IMG/VR virus record: IMGVR_UViG_3300011115_000777
Coordinates: 1 to 26,332 of that record
Direction: 5' to 3' (one strand)
Length of the DNA stretch: 26,332 bases
From: a virus
The notes beneath the pieces were generated by a model that made no database searches, had not been told where the DNA came from, and saw nothing but the letters and a program-made list of their open reading frames with translations. Of the stretch, positions 1,926 to 17,607 are shown one piece after another. Each line of letters begins with the position of its first letter. The stretch's first letter is position 1. A program made the position numbers and the translations under genes.

Positions 1926-2162
1926 ATGACGTTAGGTTTGCAATGTGGACAGGTCCCGCCATCCGAATGGCTCCGGGACATTGGTTCCCAACGGGACCTC
2001 GAATCAACAATCGTGATGCTTCGCACCACATGGGGCATCAATGACATGACAGCAGAGAATATTGCCAAGACAATATTCCCTATTGCCATTGGTGAGAGAG
2101 AATTGGTCGTGACTATGCCAGACGGCTGGCATTGGCAAGTAGAGGAGAATGAAAGTGAATAG
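1926..2162 (+). CDS. hypothetical protein
   Basis: First gene of a rightward operon, 78 residues, acidic C-terminus. The start is well supported: AAGGAG at 1912-1917 followed by TTACTAGT and ATG, a start context also found at 3477 and, on the other strand, at 7273. The protein has a segment of the kind PDGWHWQVEE at its end, suggesting a small beta hairpin, but no family is recognised. The end overlaps the next gene by up to 14 bases. It is probably transcribed from the TACAAT-type promoter at 1898-1903. Confidence 0.7.
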   Translation: MTLGLQCGQVPPSEWLRDIGSQRDLESTIVMLRTTWGINDMTAENIAKTIFPIAIGERELVVTMPDGWHWQVEENESE

Positions 2163-2406
2163 TGTAAGCATACGGTTGACGAGCAACCCGATGATCCATG
2201 CGCCGGGGATATTCCGGTACGCGCAACATGGCTACAAGACCAGCCGGAAGAAAGCAGACAAGCAACGGTTTGTCAATCTCATTATGTCGTGGGAACACCC
2301 GATGATGGATGAGACTGTCGTGCATGGCATCCTGTCTGGCAAGGTGGATGTAACCATCTTTGAAGAGGCCGGTGAGGTGGAGTTTACAATCAATGAAACG
2401 AACTAA
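2149..2406 (+). CDS. hypothetical protein
   Basis: An 85-residue protein not recognised by family, basic in the first half (SRKKADKQRF) and acidic at the C-terminus. Two in-frame starts are possible: ATG at 2149, which lies only 2-3 bases after AGAGGAG, and GTG at 2155, which has a better spacing of about 8 bases from the same site. ATG is kept here, but GTG may be the true start and would shorten the protein by two residues. It overlaps the genes on both sides, consistent with coupled translation in one operon (1926-3112). Confidence 0.68.
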   Translation: MKVNSVSIRLTSNPMIHAPGIFRYAQHGYKTSRKKADKQRFVNLIMSWEHPMMDETVVHGILSGKVDVTIFEEAGEVEFTINETN

Positions 2407-3112
2407 CGCTGAATGGCAACGGCGAGTGATTGCCCGTCTTCTCAAGCAGGAGACGGGTCGGCACTTCCTCGACTCTGGTTCAGCGTACGGTCGGAACTGG
2501 GAACTCAATGCCATCAAGACCGATGAACAGCTGACGGGTTGGGACTACAGCTTGGAGGTACGTCCGACACACTTCGAGGTATCCCGTAACGTGGCCGACT
2601 GGATGTATCACGGGTTTGACTTTGACCGAGAGCACACTACTAAACTGATGGCATTCTCACGTTCCGAGCGCATGGCAGAAAAAGACTGGTACAAATGCCT
2701 CGTTGCATACCTAGACTCTATCGGTGCAGATATCGACCGTGAGAAGAGTGGTAATACTTGCAACAGCCAAACATTGCTGACGCAGGACGTGACGTACCTT
2801 TCGATTGACATCCCAAATCTATGTGGTGACTACTATGCCATAGCGGTGCATCAAGGATGCGATGTTCGTGGTGGATACGGTGAGTATGTAATCGCGGAGG
2901 CAACGGATGACATGTGGTCTTACGCCAATGCCACCCTGTATTGCAAGAATAGACACTACCTGACAACCGATGATGCATATCGCTGGTATCTAGATGGGGA
3001 TTGTTCGAGCGCATCGACCTTCACAGATGAAAACCTCAAGATTGCGTCCAACGCGCATGCATGGTGGCTCCAGTGTCCAGAATGCAAATGCAAACTGGAA
3101 GTAGGAAGATAA
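2393..3112 (+). CDS. hypothetical phage protein with GRNW motif and C-terminal cysteines
   Basis: Read from ATG 2393 (239 residues), preceded by GGTGGAG at about 10 bases; a TTG 33 bases upstream in frame has no better site. The N-terminus carries RHFLDSGSAYGRNWELN, a block I recall from unannotated phage proteins of similar size. The last residues contain the cluster C-P-E-C-K-C-K, which could bind a metal. No enzyme motif was recognised. It is the last gene of the operon and is followed 11 bases later by a strong intrinsic terminator. Confidence 0.78.
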   Translation: MKRTNAEWQRRVIARLLKQETGRHFLDSGSAYGRNWELNAIKTDEQLTGWDYSLEVRPTHFEVSRNVADWMYHGFDFDREHTTKLMAFSRSERMAEKDWYKCLVAYLDSIGADIDREKSGNTCNSQTLLTQDVTYLSIDIPNLCGDYYAIAVHQGCDVRGGYGEYVIAEATDDMWSYANATLYCKNRHYLTTDDAYRWYLDGDCSSASTFTDENLKIASNAHAWWLQCPECKCKLEVGR

Positions 3113-3122
3113 TCCAAAAGCA

Positions 3123-3157
3123 AAACGCCATCCAATACGGGTGGCGTTTCTGTTTGT
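3123..3157 (+). terminator. intrinsic terminator after the 1926-3112 operon
   Basis: AAACGCCA at 3123-3130 pairs with TGGCGTTT at 3142-3149. A T-G wobble and two more C-G pairs extend the stem to 11 pairs around loop AATAC. It is followed by a T-rich stretch (CTGTTTGTTATTT). It sits 10 bases after the stop of the preceding gene. Confidence 0.88.
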
Positions 3158-3168
3158 TATTTATGGCA

Positions 3169-3260
3169 TATGTTACCTGCGTGTGTTGTGTGGCCATCCG
3201 CGAGCGAAGCGAGCGGATGAATGGAAGGGCAGGGCGGAGACCTGCAACCGGTGAAAAAAC
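3169..3260 (+). ncRNA. structured intergenic element, copy A (candidate small RNA)
   Basis: A possible -10 box TATGTT at 3169-3174 is followed by ACCTGC and a GTGTG initiation-like stretch. Then comes a stem of CATCCGC (3195-3201) with GCGGATG (3213-3219) that encloses the shared core GCGAGCGAAGCGAGC (3200-3214), a GGAAGG stretch, a second hairpin GCAGG/CCTGC (3229-3245), and AACCGGT (3246-3252). Copy B at 5574-5670 has the same order with the same core, but with different stem arms that still pair. That argues for selection on RNA structure. No terminator with a T run was found just after copy A, so the 3' end is uncertain; the stretch up to 3476 shows no convincing gene. Confidence 0.4.
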
Positions 3261-3476
3261 AGCTGGAAAGGGCGCTCATTGTGGATCCGTGGCGCGGGTA
3301 CAAGTGGATGCTGCTTAGCTCAGCCACGCCGGGTACAGCACATGCCTGGACAAAGATGCACGGGTTGCTACAGCTCAAAGTAATTCGAATACACCCAAAT
3401 AGACCAGCTGAAACCCGCAGGTACTTGATGTACAATGACGTTCCCACACAGGTGGGATGGAGAGTAAGTAACTAGT

Positions 3477-4226
3477 ATGAAGACTAAACAGTCAACGGGG
3501 CAGACGCAATTTCTGCATCATCAACTTGGGTTGTATTGGAAGCGGGACAAGAACATCCTGCCGCTTGGCGGTGACTACATCCCATCATGGGGATGGACAG
3601 GTCCAGAGTTTTCCAACTGGCTCGAACGCATGGGCGAAGGCAAGTCTTGGACACCAACACTGGTCGAAGAACTGGCGAACGCAGGAGCATTGCCTATGCC
3701 AGTCTACAAAGGCAAACCGCAAGGTATCTCAAATCTCGTGCTCGCTGAAATCAAAGCAAAGCACGATGCAGACCCGCAGGTATTCTCTGAGGTATGCATC
3801 GAGTTTGACGAGGACGAGTCTGAGACGTTCGTATCCCGGCATGACCGGTCAGACATAGCGCAACGCGACAACTGGTTCGCAGAGCAAATCAAAGGCGCGT
3901 ATCCAGACTATGTATTCAAGTCTGAAGAGCACGACATCGACATGGACATCATCAAGCTGGAAAACCGATACGACTATTGGATGGCCAAGTATCAACCCAT
4001 TCCACACTTCCTATTCGAGGACGATAAACCCATCGACATGCGGATTGACATATCAGGTAGCGATATCCCGCTAGGGATAAACGTACAGCATATTTGGACA
4101 CGTATATGGGCCGACAATTGCGACTTGATTGTTCCCGGATATCACTGGGTCAATCGCTTGGCATACATCGTGACCAACCAGCCGTGGAACGCGGACACTG
4201 ACGGAGACATAGAGGTAATCGATTAA
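3477..4226 (+). CDS. hypothetical protein
   Basis: A 249-residue acidic protein that opens a second rightward operon. The start lies in the context GTAACTAGT-ATG, nearly identical to those at 1926 and 7273 (minus), with GGAGAG about 12 bases upstream. The N-terminal part (about residues 15-60) has many aromatic residues (YWKRDKN, SWGWTG), the middle is acidic (FDEDESET), and the C-terminal part is beta-rich. No family or catalytic motif was recognised. A TACAAT at 3431-3436 could be its -10 box. It joins the next gene by a TAATG stop-start overlap. Confidence 0.74.
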   Translation: MKTKQSTGQTQFLHHQLGLYWKRDKNILPLGGDYIPSWGWTGPEFSNWLERMGEGKSWTPTLVEELANAGALPMPVYKGKPQGISNLVLAEIKAKHDADPQVFSEVCIEFDEDESETFVSRHDRSDIAQRDNWFAEQIKGAYPDYVFKSEEHDIDMDIIKLENRYDYWMAKYQPIPHFLFEDDKPIDMRIDISGSDIPLGINVQHIWTRIWADNCDLIVPGYHWVNRLAYIVTNQPWNADTDGDIEVID

Positions 4227-4606
4227 TGGACACACAGCTCATCTTGGTAAAGGCCAAGCCGCAAAGCGATGACCGCTTCATCCTGCATAGCAAGGTGGAG
4301 ATAACGGAAGACAACACATTTGCCCGTGCAGACATGCGCGGATTCCCGGTGTCATTCGGGACCGATGCAAAGCAAGACGTACACGACTGGGCCGTTGTCA
4401 ACGGCTATGACGTGCACGATGTCATCCAACCCGGCGGATGGCAGATCATCGTAACAACAGCGCCCGGCGAACGCTGGGCCAGCAACGCGATGGTCTACCC
4501 GACATGGGAAGAAGCACAGGACGCTTTGTATGACTTGACTGGCCGATGGTTTGCCATCAAGCATGGTGCAATCCGACCTATTCAACAGGAGACGGTGAAG
4601 ATATGA
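4226..4606 (+). CDS. hypothetical protein
   Basis: A 126-residue protein in a tight operon: its ATG overlaps the stop of the previous gene by one base (TAATG) and its TGA overlaps the next ATG (ATGA at 4603-4606). It has an alternating beta pattern and a C-terminal helix with YPTWEEAQDALYDLTGRW, similar to helices at the end of many small phage proteins of unknown role. No conserved family could be named. Codon use is like the neighbouring rightward genes. Confidence 0.72.
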   Translation: MDTQLILVKAKPQSDDRFILHSKVEITEDNTFARADMRGFPVSFGTDAKQDVHDWAVVNGYDVHDVIQPGGWQIIVTTAPGERWASNAMVYPTWEEAQDALYDLTGRWFAIKHGAIRPIQQETVKI

Positions 4607-5388
4607 GCGAGTATTGGAATCTCGAAGAGCGCAACTACGCCAACGACCATCGGGTCCAAGCTCGTGATGCACACCGCTGGTATTCCGAAGTGGACGATGC
4701 AAAGATGGTCGCTTTATTGCCAACCGAATATCCAAACGCGGTCAAGGTTTACGCCCGCTTTGAATACAAAGTTTGCGAAACCTGCAACGGCAAGGGCTCC
4801 CACGTCAACCCAAGCATTGACGCATCCGGCATTACGGCAGATGACATGCACGACATGGACATGGAAGCGTACATGGACGGTGACTATGACGTTGAATGCT
4901 ACGGTTGCTTTGGAAAGCGGGTTGTCCCACATCAGGTAGGTGAGACATGGACGGAGCAGAATAACGAGATGGCGATAGACATCGCGTTCGGTCTGGCTCG
5001 CATTCTCATCTACCGATTCGACCTGCCCGTACCACCATGCAAGTATGGCCACAATAACTGTTCAGCTGATGGCCTTCATGGCGGCACATGCTGGGACGAA
5101 ACCTACCAAGGTATGAAGGCAGACGGCCTCATCGATTCCCAGACGGACAGTGTTTGGATTCCAGAAGGCATGAAGATTAACGTGCACACCCTGCATGCCG
5201 TTATCGCCAACTTATGTTCAGAGCACGAGGATACCGGGGAGGAGCTCACGGTGGAGATGGAGGAGGCAATGGATGTCTCTGACCCAGACAACCTGAGCGC
5301 ATCCAAAGACCTGTACACATACATCAATGAGCAACGGCCCATCGTGCGTGAAGCATTGCGGCGCTTCAGGCGGCAATCGCAACCGTAA
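4603..5388 (+). CDS. phage protein with DnaJ-like zinc-binding cysteines
   Basis: Read from ATG 4603 (261 residues), the start overlapping the preceding stop; a longer frame upstream lacks a good start. Near residues 58-64 there is CETCNGKG followed by SHVNPSIDASGIT, and about 35 residues later CYGCFGKRVVP. The paired C-x2-C-x-G-K motifs resemble half of a DnaJ zinc finger, and the HVNPSIDA..G block matches a recurrent phage family of unknown function that I recall. A further C/H-rich part (PPCKYGHNNCSADGLHGGTC) follows near residues 145-165. A role in protein or nucleic acid binding is inferred only. A terminator follows. Confidence 0.82.
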   Translation: MSEYWNLEERNYANDHRVQARDAHRWYSEVDDAKMVALLPTEYPNAVKVYARFEYKVCETCNGKGSHVNPSIDASGITADDMHDMDMEAYMDGDYDVECYGCFGKRVVPHQVGETWTEQNNEMAIDIAFGLARILIYRFDLPVPPCKYGHNNCSADGLHGGTCWDETYQGMKADGLIDSQTDSVWIPEGMKINVHTLHAVIANLCSEHEDTGEELTVEMEEAMDVSDPDNLSASKDLYTYINEQRPIVREALRRFRRQSQP

Positions 5389-5408
5389 CCAAAAGCCGTC
5401 AACCCTCC

Positions 5409-5438
5409 AACCCGTCCGCGCATGCAGACGGGTTTTTT
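5409..5438 (+). terminator. intrinsic terminator after the 3477-5388 operon
   Basis: AACCCGTC (5409-5416) pairs perfectly with GACGGGTT (5427-5434) around a 10-base loop, and the T run continues to 5438. It lies 20 bases after the last stop codon of the operon. Confidence 0.92.
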
Positions 5439-5445
5439 CATGCCA

Positions 5446-5552
5446 TATGCTAACAACCCGTGTGTGTGTCGGAATCCCCGTAGAATCGCCCGTACGGGAC
5501 CGATACAGGATGGATGCATCGAATATCCCGGATGATAGGGAAACATCCCGGA
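5446..5552 (+). promoter_or_regulatory. possible promoter and operator stretch
   Basis: This stretch follows the terminator and has no gene. TATGCT at 5446-5451 precedes a CGTGTGTGTG run, as in copies A and B. TAGAATCGC at 5481-5489 matches the TACAATCGC boxes at 1699 and 1898 and is followed by the palindrome CCCGTACGGG (5489-5498). ATCCCGGA is repeated at 5525-5532 and 5545-5552, exactly 20 bases apart, about two helical turns, as in paired protein binding sites. All roles are inferred from position and repetition. Confidence 0.35.
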
Positions 5553-5573
5553 AATGCCCCACATATCTAAGCA

Positions 5574-5670
5574 GATACTTGCGTGTGTGTTGAAGCCAGC
5601 CGGGCGAGCGAAGCGAGCACGGCTGATAGAGGGAAGGCCGCCGGGCCAGAAAGGGCCGGAACCGGTCAGA
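5574..5670 (+). ncRNA. structured intergenic element, copy B (candidate small RNA)
   Basis: GATACT (5574-5579) followed by TGCGTG and a GT run forms a promoter-like start. The stem CAGCCG (5597-5602) with CGGCTG (5620-5625) encloses the core GCGAGCGAAGCGAGC (5604-5618). Next come GGGAAGG, a second hairpin with arms CCGG/CCGG (about 5640-5659), and AACCGGT (5660-5666). Distances from the -10 box to the core (25 bases) match copy A (26). A TTCTTTTT tract near 5690 could end the transcript. The rest of the space up to 5757 shows nothing else clear. Confidence 0.4.
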
Positions 5671-5757: not shown

Positions 5758-5789
5758 AAAAAAACCCAACCGAGAATCCCCGGTTGGGT
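5758..5789 (-). terminator. intrinsic terminator of the 5818-7273 leftward operon
   Basis: On the minus strand ACCCAACCG (5789-5781) pairs with CGGTTGGGT (5772-5764) around an 8-base loop and runs into a T7 tract (the A run at 5758-5764 on the plus strand). It lies 28 bases past the stop of the last leftward gene. Confidence 0.9.
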
Positions 5790-7000: not shown

Positions 7001-7273
7001 CTACTTTCTGCCCTTCCCGCGCATGAAAGAGACCCATGCCCAATGTCGGAGGGAATCCCCGATTCCGTAGTAAGCGCCACAAGCGGCCACGACAGACAAT
7101 CCCAGACAAAGCAAGCGAGCGACCTGCACCGCTTCCGAGATGTCGAAACGGCTGGTTATGATAGAAGCGAAAGCGCAGAAACCCGCGACGATGCAAGCAA
7201 TGAAAGAGAGAGCCCACCAAGCGAGCGAGAGCGCCAGCCGGGCAACTTCCCGGCGCGTTAGGTAATCGTACAT
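7001..7273 (-). CDS. small membrane protein, first gene of the leftward operon
   Basis: Read from ATG 7273 (90 residues), not from an upstream start in the same frame, because the conserved context AAGGTTACTAGT-ATG (also before 1926) lies exactly here. After a basic start (MYDYLTRREVARL) come two hydrophobic segments, about residues 15-38 and 52-72, then a basic tail (MRGKGRK). It is therefore a two-pass membrane protein with both ends probably cytoplasmic. Six bases separate its stop from the next start. Function unknown. A TATAAT lies about 50 bases upstream. Confidence 0.62.
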   Translation of the reverse strand: MYDYLTRREVARLALSLAWWALSFIACIVAGFCAFASIITSRFDISEAVQVARLLCLGLSVVAACGAYYGIGDSLRHWAWVSFMRGKGRK

Positions 7274-7322
7274 ACTAGTAACCTTCCCATGTCCCCAGAA
7301 CAAACGCGGGACACGTTCGACA

Positions 7323-7329: not shown

Positions 7330-7676
7330 AAGAGAACGCAATAGATGGAACTGGATGGAAGCGAAACGCGGGGACAAATGCGCGGAAGTGTGAAGCGGAA
7401 ACACGCGGGCGATTCCCTAGGATGTGGCGGGCATACTTGCAGGGTAAGTAGACACGACTACACAGCAGGGTACAACAGCAAACTAAGCAGCTCATGCACG
7501 GCGCTAGATGCAACGCGGGCGGAAGCGCAACAGGGTAGAACATTGCCCAGGTACTACACGCGCACGCGTGCAACAGCTGGCCAGCGGCCACATATGCCCA
7601 GATATACCAGCGGGGGAAGCGGGCAAGCCGCGCAGCTCGACACCACTTGTACCCAAATAGAGGGGTGATGAAAATT
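7330..7676. other. stretch without convincing genes
   Basis: No frame here has a ribosome binding site and plausible composition. Noted sites: CATACT at 7432-7437 followed by TTGCAGGG, similar to the TACCTGCG/TACTTGCG initiation sequences elsewhere in the window; the palindromes GCACGCGTGC (7562-7571) and CTGGCCAG (7577-7584). Confidence 0.4.
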
Positions 7677-8012
7677 TCCGGCTCGTCCCTCGCCGGGCTA
7701 CGGTGCTTCGCGGTAGTCTTCGCTAGAGTAGGAGTTCACGTTCGTTCACGGCGTGTTGCGCTGCACCTTGTGCAGCTTCGCTCTGGCGTGCATCCGCACG
7801 CCTGTGTTGCACACTTCGTGTTGCACCAGTGCGACTCGCTCCGCGAGTCAGCTCCGCGTGTCTTCGCTCCCTGGTCGGTCTCCGCTACGCTGCGCCAACC
7901 AGACGCTACGACCCGCTCCGCATGGTGTGCACCTTGTGCTACACCAACCTCACTCGCTCCGCGAGTGTGTGGTGCACACTTCGTGTAGCACCAACGTGCT
8001 CGCTCCGCGAGC
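7677..8012. repeat. array of short perfect hairpins with 3-4 base loops
   Basis: At least six tight palindromes lie within 260 bases: GCTGCAC-CTT-GTGCAGC (7760-7776), GGCGTGC-ATCC-GCACGCC (7785-7802), GACTCGC-TCC-GCGAGTC (7833-7849), CACTCGC-TCC-GCGAGTG (7951-7967), GGTGC-ACAC-TTC-GTGT-A-GCACC (7971-7992) and GCTCGC-TCC-GCGAGC (7998-8012). CTGGT/ACCAG near 7880-7915 and GGTGT/ACACC near 7924-7945 are looser ones. The TCGC-TCC-GCGA core occurs three times with different, still paired, outer bases. Spacing is irregular and there are no spacers of equal length, so this is not a CRISPR. Function unknown: origin, structured RNA or selfish palindromes are all open. Confidence 0.6.
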
Positions 8013-8039
8013 GTCCGTCACCCCTTCGTGTGTTGTGTA

Positions 8040-8250
8040 CGCGCTTAGCTGACTACGCTGTGTGTCCGCCGCCCCGCCTCCCCCTCCTCCCTCCCTTGTG
8101 TGCTCCACCCGTGTAGGGAGGGGGGTATGGCAAGCCCCGCCCCCACCCGATAATTTCTTTATGCACCCCCCGCCTACGGAAGATCCACTTTCTAACCCTT
8201 TTCTCCCGTCGGAGAACCTACCCTGTAAATATTCCACCCTCCTTAGCGGA
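8040..8250. other. C-rich low-complexity stretch without genes
   Basis: The plus strand is strongly pyrimidine-rich (CCTCC-type runs at 8067-8097, CCCCGCCCCC near 8135-8147, CCCCCC near 8165). CCTCCCT (8090-8096) can pair with AGGGAGG (8115-8121). Frames here encode only proline or glycine runs and have no start signals. It ends where the AT-richer phage module begins. Confidence 0.45.
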
Positions 8251-11036: not shown

Positions 11037-11042
11037 TATAAT
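11037..11042 (+). promoter_or_regulatory. -10 box TATAAT
   Basis: A perfect TATAAT begins immediately after the TGA of the preceding gene. ACCTGC and then GTG follow; the block TAT..TACCTGCGTG is shared with the element at 3169. It serves the gene at 11079, or a leaderless GTG start at 11049, and then SSB. No good -35 box. Confidence 0.6.
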
Positions 11043-11078
11043 ACCTGCGTGGGTAACCACAGTAAGTCAGAGGTATTT

Positions 11079-11994: not shown

Positions 11995-12061
11995 CTTGCT
12001 TGAGTTGGGGTCAAGCAAGTGAAGAGCATTAGTCAATCAATCCTAGTGCTCTTCCTTTTTT
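11995..12061 (+). terminator. double hairpin with intrinsic terminator
   Basis: First hairpin: CTTGCTTGA (11995-12003) with TCAAGCAAG (12011-12019), 9 perfect pairs. Second: GAAGAGCATTAG (12021-12032) with CTAGTGCTCTTC (12043-12054), 12 pairs with one wobble, followed by T6 (12056-12061). The second hairpin also contains the last codons and stop of the convergent leftward gene, an economical shared end. Confidence 0.85.
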
Positions 12062-12277
12062 AAGGGCTCTGTTCTTAGCGTCAAGTCCACTTACTCCAAG
12101 CTTCCAGTAAAGGTTGTCCAAGTGGAAGTTGACGGTTCGGTGGCTAATAGATAGAGCGACACCCATCATCTTTGCTGTGCGCCCTTTAGGCAACATACGT
12201 AAGATCTCTAGCTCACGATCCGAAAGTGGATACGTGAGCTCAGAGTTTACGGACTCTACGGTTTTCTCGTCAGACAT
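12029..12277 (-). CDS. LuxR/GerE-type HTH protein, HTH domain only
   Basis: Read from ATG 12277 (82 residues), with GGGAGG 5 bases upstream and one-base overlap (TAATG) with the thyX stop. Residues 20-80 form a GerE helix-turn-helix: LSDRELEILRMLPKGRTAKMM, then G-V-A-L-S-I-S-H-R-T-V-N-F-H-L and NLYWKLGV. The family sites S-x-R-E, T-V-x-x-H and K-L are all present. It lacks any signal-binding domain, so it would be a simple DNA-binding regulator. It is the last gene of the dut-thyX operon and could regulate it or a later gene. Confidence 0.86.
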   Translation of the reverse strand: MSDEKTVESVNSELTYPLSDRELEILRMLPKGRTAKMMGVALSISHRTVNFHLDNLYWKLGVSGLDAKNRALKKGRALGLID

Positions 12278-12897
12278 TAGTCCTCCCATACAGTGGGGCA
12301 TTGTTGTCTCAGTATGGCCAATACGATAGTGGCAACATGCTGATGTTCGTCTTGCGCCCCCTCTTCAAGACGGCTTTCTAGGTAATGGATCCAACTCCGA
12401 AGAGTTCCATTAACGTACATAGTTGTAGGTGTACACATAGGCAACACGTTGCGAGCTGTCTCTGGTGCAACACCAAACGCGATCATCTTTTCATAGGTGT
12501 CAAATGCCAGTGCTACAGATTCATCAGCTAGGCATTCCATCTCGCGAAGCTCAGGATTGTCATCGTCAATGATTGATGATTGCCTATTGGTTGGATGCTT
12601 TAACCTAAGTTGTATAGGCATAGGTTTTTCTACTACAGGAGAATACCGTTGAGAGAAAACTTGGAATGACATAGACTTATGGCGCTGCATTTGCATAGCG
12701 ACTGCAATTGATGTTTTGATTTCCAAACAGGCGTTTGCCATCTCGAATACAGACCAGTGCTTCTTGCGCTTGCAGTACTTTAACAGCTTGGCAAAGTCTG
12801 GGTTGTCTTGATTCTTTGGATTACTAACCCGTGCACAATATGCGATGTGGGATTCAGCGTCAGGTGTTATCCATACGAGTCTAGCTTGGGTCCTCAT
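12277..12897 (-). CDS. thyX: flavin-dependent thymidylate synthase
   Basis: A 206-residue ThyX, which makes dTMP from dUMP with FAD, NADPH and methylene-tetrahydrofolate. The signature R-H-R-x7-S appears as QRHKSMSFQVFSQRYS (residues 71-86): the third residue is Lys instead of the usual Arg. The N-terminal CARVSNP and the helix KHWSVFEMANACLEI, the NVLPMCTPTTMYVNGTLRSWIHYLESR region and the final A-Q-x-E-x-x-x-x-A segment (GAQDEHQHVA) are in family order. The start overlaps the dUTPase stop by 4 bases (ATGA), so dUMP made by dUTPase feeds this enzyme. Confidence 0.95.
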   Translation of the reverse strand: MRTQARLVWITPDAESHIAYCARVSNPKNQDNPDFAKLLKYCKRKKHWSVFEMANACLEIKTSIAVAMQMQRHKSMSFQVFSQRYSPVVEKPMPIQLRLKHPTNRQSSIIDDDNPELREMECLADESVALAFDTYEKMIAFGVAPETARNVLPMCTPTTMYVNGTLRSWIHYLESRLEEGAQDEHQHVATIVLAILRQQCPTVWED

Positions 12898-16795: not shown

Positions 16796-16803
16796 AGTAT
16801 ACT
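16796..16803. promoter_or_regulatory. single palindromic -10 box serving both strands
   Basis: The palindrome AGTATACT (16796-16803) gives TATACT on both strands. Rightward: TATACT, TGCGTG, ATG at 16810. Leftward: TATACT, ACCTGC, ATG at 16789. Both spacings are exactly 6 bases, and neither start has a ribosome binding site. A leftward -35 box TTGCGA (complement of 16819-16824) has 17-base spacing and lies inside the rightward gene. Only one polymerase could use the box at a time. Confidence 0.62.
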
Positions 16804-16809
16804 TGCGTG

Positions 16810-17607
16810 ATGATAGACTCGCAAAACGTAGATGACCCTATGTTCATTGAACGTGCAGATGGGTTGTACCGAAAAGCTTTTGGCAAATATGTCAAATGTT
16901 GCGCTGGTTTTGTCATGGACGGCAATCAAAAGCGAAACTGTAAAAGCCCTGCAATATCGGGTAGTCAGTATTGTGCAGCGCATGGATCACAAGCACTGCA
17001 AAAACTAGAGAAACCTCAGTATCTATCTCACTTATTCCAGAAAGAACGCAAAAGATTTAAGCGTATTGGTAGAGATCTATTAGAGAAAGTAGATCTTTAC
17101 CGAGATGACCCTGATCTTTTCTCTCTACGAGATGACACTGCTTACATAACAGCATTGATGGATACACGCGCTGAAGCTGCTGCTGAAGGTGTAGGTCTAG
17201 AACAGTATCGTAAAGTTGAAGCGGCTTATTCGTTGGCCAAATCAAAGTTAGGTAGTCCTGACTTCATTGATGCGTTTGAGCAGATTGGTGATCTGTTAGA
17301 CGAGCGCATGGATGAATACTCAGCCAGTAAAGACGTTATTGAACTTATCTCGCGTCGATCTGACTTGGTTGAAGCAGAGCAACGGATTATGCAGACCAAG
17401 GCGTACACGCTGGAGGCAGATCAAGCGTTCATGTTGGTCATGCAAATTGTGGAAGTCGTAAAGACATCCATCCGCGATGCAGACGAATTGGTTGCAATAC
17501 AGAGTGGTATTAATAAGTTACTGCGTATGCATAATGCTGATCAAGAGGTTGAGATCCAAGACGCTGAGATTGTAGGTGAGACAGATGTCGAAGTCACAAG
17601 CGTATAG
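16810..17607 (+). CDS. zinc-finger protein, candidate terminase small subunit
   Basis: 265 residues from ATG 16810. Near residues 29-58 it has C-C-A-G-F ... R-N-C-K-S-P ... G-S-Q-Y-C-A-A-H-G, a C-x..C..C..H zinc-binding pattern of the kind C-x-x-P-x-x-G-x-x-x-C-x-x-H found in phage packaging and other DNA-binding proteins. The rest is helical and acidic. It directly precedes and overlaps the terminase large subunit by 23 bases, the usual place of the small subunit, which picks the DNA to be packaged. The assignment rests mainly on position. An in-frame GTG just before the ATG is the alternative start. Confidence 0.75.
   Translation: MIDSQNVDDPMFIERADGLYRKAFGKYVKCCAGFVMDGNQKRNCKSPAISGSQYCAAHGSQALQKLEKPQYLSHLFQKERKRFKRIGRDLLEKVDLYRDDPDLFSLRDDTAYITALMDTRAEAAAEGVGLEQYRKVEAAYSLAKSKLGSPDFIDAFEQIGDLLDERMDEYSASKDVIELISRRSDLVEAEQRIMQTKAYTLEADQAFMLVMQIVEVVKTSIRDADELVAIQSGINKLLRMHNADQEVEIQDAEIVGETDVEVTSV

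Follow-up and report, generated by a model that had tools for sequence, protein, structure and literature searches.

The window analysed here is the entire IMG/VR record IMGVR_UViG_3300011115_000777, 26,332 bases of a tailed-phage fragment with genes for a terminase (phrog_38), portal (phrog_156), capsid (GP7), SSB, dUTPase and ThyX. Megablast and distant blastn searches of phage records with the window and with each unit described below returned nothing useful, and the protein encoded at 3477-4226 had no detectable relatives in viral contigs. No TerL relative was found in genome contigs, and hence no host or prophage was identified; a search for WhiB as a sign of an actinobacterial host was also negative. 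Two similar units, A (3169-3260) and B (5574-5670), lie on the left of the window, each after the terminator of a rightward operon, as the original prediction had placed them. The features of the two units and of related sites in the window are as follows:

3123..3149, + strand: intrinsic terminator of rightward operon 1 (1926-3112), directly before unit A; 11-bp stem with a T-rich tail
3174..3183, + strand: unit A box TACCTGCGTG, preceded by TATGTT, read from the sequence; the 10-mer is enriched in related phages
3184..3194, + strand: unit A TG-rich tract TGTTGTGTGGC, read from the sequence
3195..3219, + strand: unit A hairpin CATCCGC-GAGCGAAGCGA-GCGGATG, by folding; arms identical in copies A' and C of the relative G004
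3229..3245, + strand: unit A stem II, GCAGG-GCGGAGA-CCTGC, by folding
3247..3252, + strand: ACCGGT, the closing part common to A and B, by flank comparison
about 5408-5437, + strand: terminator of rightward operon 2 (3477-5388), read directly from the sequence
5444..5500, + strand: related TG-tract stretch without a complete box, CATATGCTAACAACCCGTGTGTGTGTCGG ... AATCGCCCGTACGGG
5576..5585, + strand: unit B box TACTTGCGTG, read from the sequence
5586..5596, + strand: unit B TG-rich tract TGTGTTGAAGC, read from the sequence
5597..5625, + strand: unit B hairpin CAGCCG-g-GC GA GC GAA GC GA GC-a-CGGCTG, by folding
5632..5666, + strand: unit B GGAAGG, second GC-rich stem and AACCGGT, by folding and flank comparison
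5764..5789, - strand: opposing intrinsic terminator, belonging to the leftward genes on the right side of unit B; 11-bp stem with a T-run
11042..11051, + strand: box TACCTGCGTG with promoter-like surroundings (TATAATACCTGCGTGGG); an ATG follows after about 37 nt
12029..12301, - strand: 90-aa LuxR/NarL-type (GerE) DNA-binding protein (PF00196, 1.5e-14), candidate binder of the box
16800..16809, + strand: box TACTTGCGTG within TATACTTGCGTGATG, at the start of gene 16807-17607, read from the sequence

A and B are similar units with differing yet pairing arms, which bears out the central claim of the original prediction. Their 15-base core, GCGAGCGAAGCGAGC, has two exact occurrences in the window, 3200-3214 and 5604-5618, and no others, while stem I is closed by CATCCGC/GCGGATG in A and by CAGCCG/CGGCTG in B, where a G.A mismatch lies between the arms and the core. 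The likeness extends beyond the core, with a left-flank score above all 2000 shuffles and right flanks at P = 0.016. Stem II had been proposed for both units; it forms in A (GCAGG/CCTGC), whereas in B RNAfold prefers another pairing to the proposed CCGG/CCGG. Folding of the whole units barely beats shuffles (z of -0.9 and -1.7). The TG run of unit A is broken, reading TGCGTGTGTTGTG, and the combination of GGAAGG with AACCGGT was encountered only in A, A' and B. Stem I of both units was also considered as an intrinsic terminator and rejected, a T-run being absent on both strands.

The core does not define a family; the leader does. The core forms a mini-hairpin built from GC, two G.A pairs and GC again, capped by a GAA triloop, and hairpins of the d(GCGAAGC) type are very stable as DNA (literature on d(GCGAAGC)). 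A scan of viral contigs placed the core in at least 120 unrelated contigs of all sorts, and 62 of the 95 instances listed, which include the window and its relative, show no pairing beyond it. Among 50 terL relatives only G004 carries it. The whole A/B architecture, used as a pattern, was not found in viral contigs; a looser pattern of leader plus core matched only G004 and one unrelated contig, and leader plus GAGCGNAGCGA matched G004, the relative G017 and three unrelated contigs.

G004 is the nearest relative (57,378 bases, TerL 98% identical) and carries unit A at its contig end (A'). The arms of A' are those of A, so this pair gives no covariation, and since A is the only unit with an orthologue, no orthologous covariation is shown. 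Stem II of A' likewise keeps its stem, with the loop GCGAAGA instead of GCGGAGA. A third copy, C, flanked by leftward gene groups on both sides, lies in G004 upstream of where the window begins and reads TACCTGCGTGGGGTGTGTGCA-CATCCGC-GA-GCGGATG, that is, the arms of A around a 2-nt loop. With a leader and a stem and no core, copy C indicates that these two parts can occur coreless.

Across the clade, the leader box proved strongly enriched and oriented. The 25 related records (1.01 Mb) contain TACYTGCGTG 49 times, whereas 60 permutations of its letters yield a median of 3 and at most 17. In 22 related phage records the widened box TAC[CT][TA][AG]CG[TGA]G reaches 238 copies (25.8 per 100 kb), and it is about tenfold sparser, at 2.4 per 100 kb, in a 1.06-Mb control of unrelated viral contigs; because the definition of the box started from A and B and was broadened, after inspection, to variants that were also enriched, these counts carry some choice, and they come from relatives that are not independent, with near-duplicates among the copies. 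A box followed by a TG-rich run is found at 62 sites in the clade and at none in the controls, and all 62 of these TG-rich copies point in the direction of terL. Intergenic boxes number 144 in the terL orientation and 15 in the opposite one, the label intergenic being approximate, as gene calls were crude (long ORFs). Boxes of promoter-like appearance lie by gene starts at 11042 and 16800 in the window and, as TATACTTGCGTGGGAGGTAACATTATG, in the relative G016. Elements recur at many gene junctions in seven relatives (G036, G039, G041, G043, G045, G048 and G050), where same-orientation pairs of boxes often form direct repeats 45-47 bp apart.

Two further arrangements were observed among the relatives. 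In G045, G050, G043, G036 and G048 (for example at loci L254 and L260), a conserved TGTAG[AT]TCG lies between both boxes, and CGTGNNNN is directly repeated with a 16-bp period, possibly marking further binding sites. At G016:39374-39391 and G017:35745-35762, boxes stand back to back with overlapping upstream sequence, each before a gene, as in a compact divergent promoter pair.

The hairpin is held in a fixed register behind the box. Arms and loops are too divergent for a covariance model, which would amount to a generic hairpin, and pairing was therefore assessed by register and shuffle tests. In 14 of the 62 TG-rich copies, only about a quarter, a perfect stem of 6 bp or more begins +13 to +16 nt after the GTG of the box, against 0.64 expected from shuffles (maximum 4 in 200 rounds) and 2.3% of random intergenic windows; unit B falls outside the 14 owing to its stem mismatch. 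Stems at other offsets ahead of a terminator occur in 0-2 copies. Eleven distinct arm pairs are represented, and the paired cells, 66/66 as observed, average 35 when arms are dealt among the copies, although this dealing test uses copies picked for pairing, which makes the register test the fair one. The loops, predicted to be fixed, vary among the other copies (GA, GAGGTACGA, GAA, CCGAAGA, GTCA, CAG and more). Those near A and B resemble variants of one fold, namely GA-GCGAAGC-GA (A, B), GA-GCGCAGC-GA (G017), GA-GGTAC-GA (G013), GAA (G014) and CCGAAGA (G005); the loops of G039 and G041 are unrelated (CAG, AACCA, TT).

A candidate regulator is encoded in the same genomes. The GerE gene of the window lies 5.3 kb before terL, beside thyX, and its protein is found in 39 of the 50 terL relatives, the other 11 of which have little sequence left ahead of terL. 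The recognition helix of the protein hardly varies across the clade, as expected of a shared target. Proteins of the NarL family usually bind paired sites; here the usual paired inverted sites are not seen, the box being single or in the direct repeats described above. The NarL heptamer is TACYYMT (PMC4886647), and the box begins in the same way, TACY(T/A), whereas its remainder, RCGKG, does not fit the MT of the heptamer. The GerE-type protein of the clade is a good candidate to bind the box. This regulator, which consists of the GerE domain only, is present in every terL relative that apparently covers its position.

Our preferred reading, held tentatively and at somewhat less than even confidence, is that A and B belong to a clade-wide set of oriented intergenic regulatory cassettes, each combining a promoter-start box with a leader hairpin. 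The order would be the box TACY(T/A)(A/G)CG(T/G/A)G, a TG-rich run and a hairpin about 14 nt past the box. From this arrangement we infer promoter activity, a start site, a role for the hairpin and binding by the GerE-type protein: the box would overlap the -10/start region of promoters reading in the terL direction, the RNA would start near the GTG of the box with a UG-rich first stretch of about 14 nt, and the hairpin would fold immediately in the leader and there might shield the 5' end, induce pausing or alter polymerase behaviour. The transcript from A would form the leader of rightward operon 2 (3477-5388), and those from B, C and most of the remaining copies would head into the terminator of the opposing gene; the conserved GerE-type protein would bind the box. 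Counting against a promoter is the poor -10 hexamer and missing -35 element of many hairpin-bearing copies, A and B included. A broader formulation, possible though we lean against it, takes the element as an oriented composite junction signal read by the phage's own LuxR/NarL-type protein, an undescribed genome-wide code in which selection would act on the pairing of the hairpin and not on its sequence.

The prediction had offered two interpretations, a new phage small RNA class with a conserved core and a repeated regulatory site. The second is supported, given a leader box that is clade-wide, oriented and intergenic and a hairpin whose register is fixed while its arms change. The first we consider improbable, despite a promoter-like leader, stable hairpins and arms that change but still pair. 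An intrinsic terminator in the element's own direction lies within 200 nt of 4 of the 62 TG-rich copies, near the background of 4.6% in random windows, and is missing from the other 58 and after both A and B, a scarcity that argues against a discrete small RNA. Moreover, loops and everything past stem I vary among copies, with no sequence conserved beyond the promoter-like leader, Rfam searches with the units gave no match, and the core sequence is common elsewhere. The element probably organises transcription rather than makes a free small RNA. Two chance insertions of a ubiquitous mini-hairpin by ordinary promoters, as the wide occurrence of GCGAGCGAAGCGAGC, mostly without extended arms, might suggest, are scarcely credible in view of the flank similarity of A and B, the A-like leader and arms of the coreless copy C, and a register that is fixed clade-wide and stands up to the shuffle and control tests.

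An alternative that we regard as somewhat unlikely places the function at the DNA level, as an oriented recombination or replication signal or a homology junction for cassette shuffling, in which case orientation would reflect genome polarity and not transcription. The terL orientation of all TG-rich copies holds regardless of the direction of neighbouring genes, the elements lie at gene-cassette junctions within a variable region, and the hairpins near A and B fold as DNA and are capped by GNA triloops (GAA, GCA, perhaps GTA) that are very stable in DNA. Against this, boxes by rightward gene starts resemble promoters, and the differing loops of other subclades mean that the GNA cap is not general. 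The boxes could also be distant operators of the opposing leftward genes, with a box and its partner 45-47 bp away binding the regulator and the hairpin by the terminator blocking read-through. This possibility arises from the seven relatives, in which the elements precede leftward genes whose own TATA-like promoter stands closer to the start codon; read on the leftward strand, the order is terminator, T-run, hairpin, CA-run, box, about 36 nt, box, 60-80 nt, TATA-like promoter and ATG, and an opposing intrinsic terminator lies within 200 nt of 41 of the 62 TG-rich copies. We nevertheless judge it distinctly unlikely, as A sits between two rightward operons and would have no leftward gene to control, no such gene lies beyond B, and many boxes directly precede rightward genes.

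The element, read as a regulatory cassette, resembles known phage systems. SAS/ESAS of Cluster K mycobacteriophages is a short asymmetric repeat present 11-19 times per genome and almost always in one orientation; adjacent inverted repeats with imperfectly conserved arms accompany about half of the copies (PMC3203893). Both systems share an asymmetric repeat, many copies, a single orientation and a partial association with inverted repeats. They differ in that the SAS sequence, GGGATAGGAGCCC, lies at translation starts with its inverted repeats upstream, whereas here the box is TACYTRCGKG, many copies have no following gene start, and the hairpin is downstream with freely changing arms. The stem-loop of PeSL elements is reportedly a terminator next to an early promoter. 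PeSL, as summarised in PMC4503421, are promoter and stem-loop motifs at intergenic positions in gene-shuffling zones of T4-type phages (Arbiol 2010, Comeau 2014). To the extent of that summary, the likeness lies in stem-loops at intergenic positions in a variable zone, the promoter here being predicted only; unlike PeSL, the present element belongs to another phage group and has an extra hairpin between the box and the opposing terminator. The element is therefore neither SAS/ESAS nor PeSL and, matching neither in sequence or layout, constitutes a separate case of oriented, repeated intergenic control elements in phages. The put RNA of phage HK022 is said to comprise two hairpins; most copies here have one. 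PMC9378689 describes it as an element of the nascent RNA that acts in cis on polymerase downstream of an early promoter, and in this it parallels the leader RNA proposed here to act on polymerase.

Uncultured phages are mostly read as lists of proteins, and here an oddity present in two copies leads to a repeated, oriented intergenic signal. Together with its candidate cognate regulator, this signal makes transcription control in the clade directly testable. A variable hairpin at a fixed register is also an uncommon case in which many copies per single genome show selection on pairing alone.

Several other stretches of the window carry related or repetitive sequence. The region 1647-1725 contains a similarly oriented TG-tract stretch, CATATCTTATGTAGCGTGTGTGTGTGTGTGTC ... 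ACAATCGCCCGTGCGAGCACG, with the hairpin CGTGC-GA-GCACG, and has AATCGCCCGT in common with 5484-5493. On the - strand, the GT tract at 1649-1692 gives a possible small ORF (GTG ACA CAC ACA CAC, VTHTHT..), which is open in G004 too and is preceded by AAAGGTTACTAGT, a start context like that at 7271-7285. Dense short hairpins of the types CTCGCTCCGCGAG and CACACTTCGTGTTGCACCA, each repeated at least 2 times, fill the stretch at 7660-8080, which looks non-coding.
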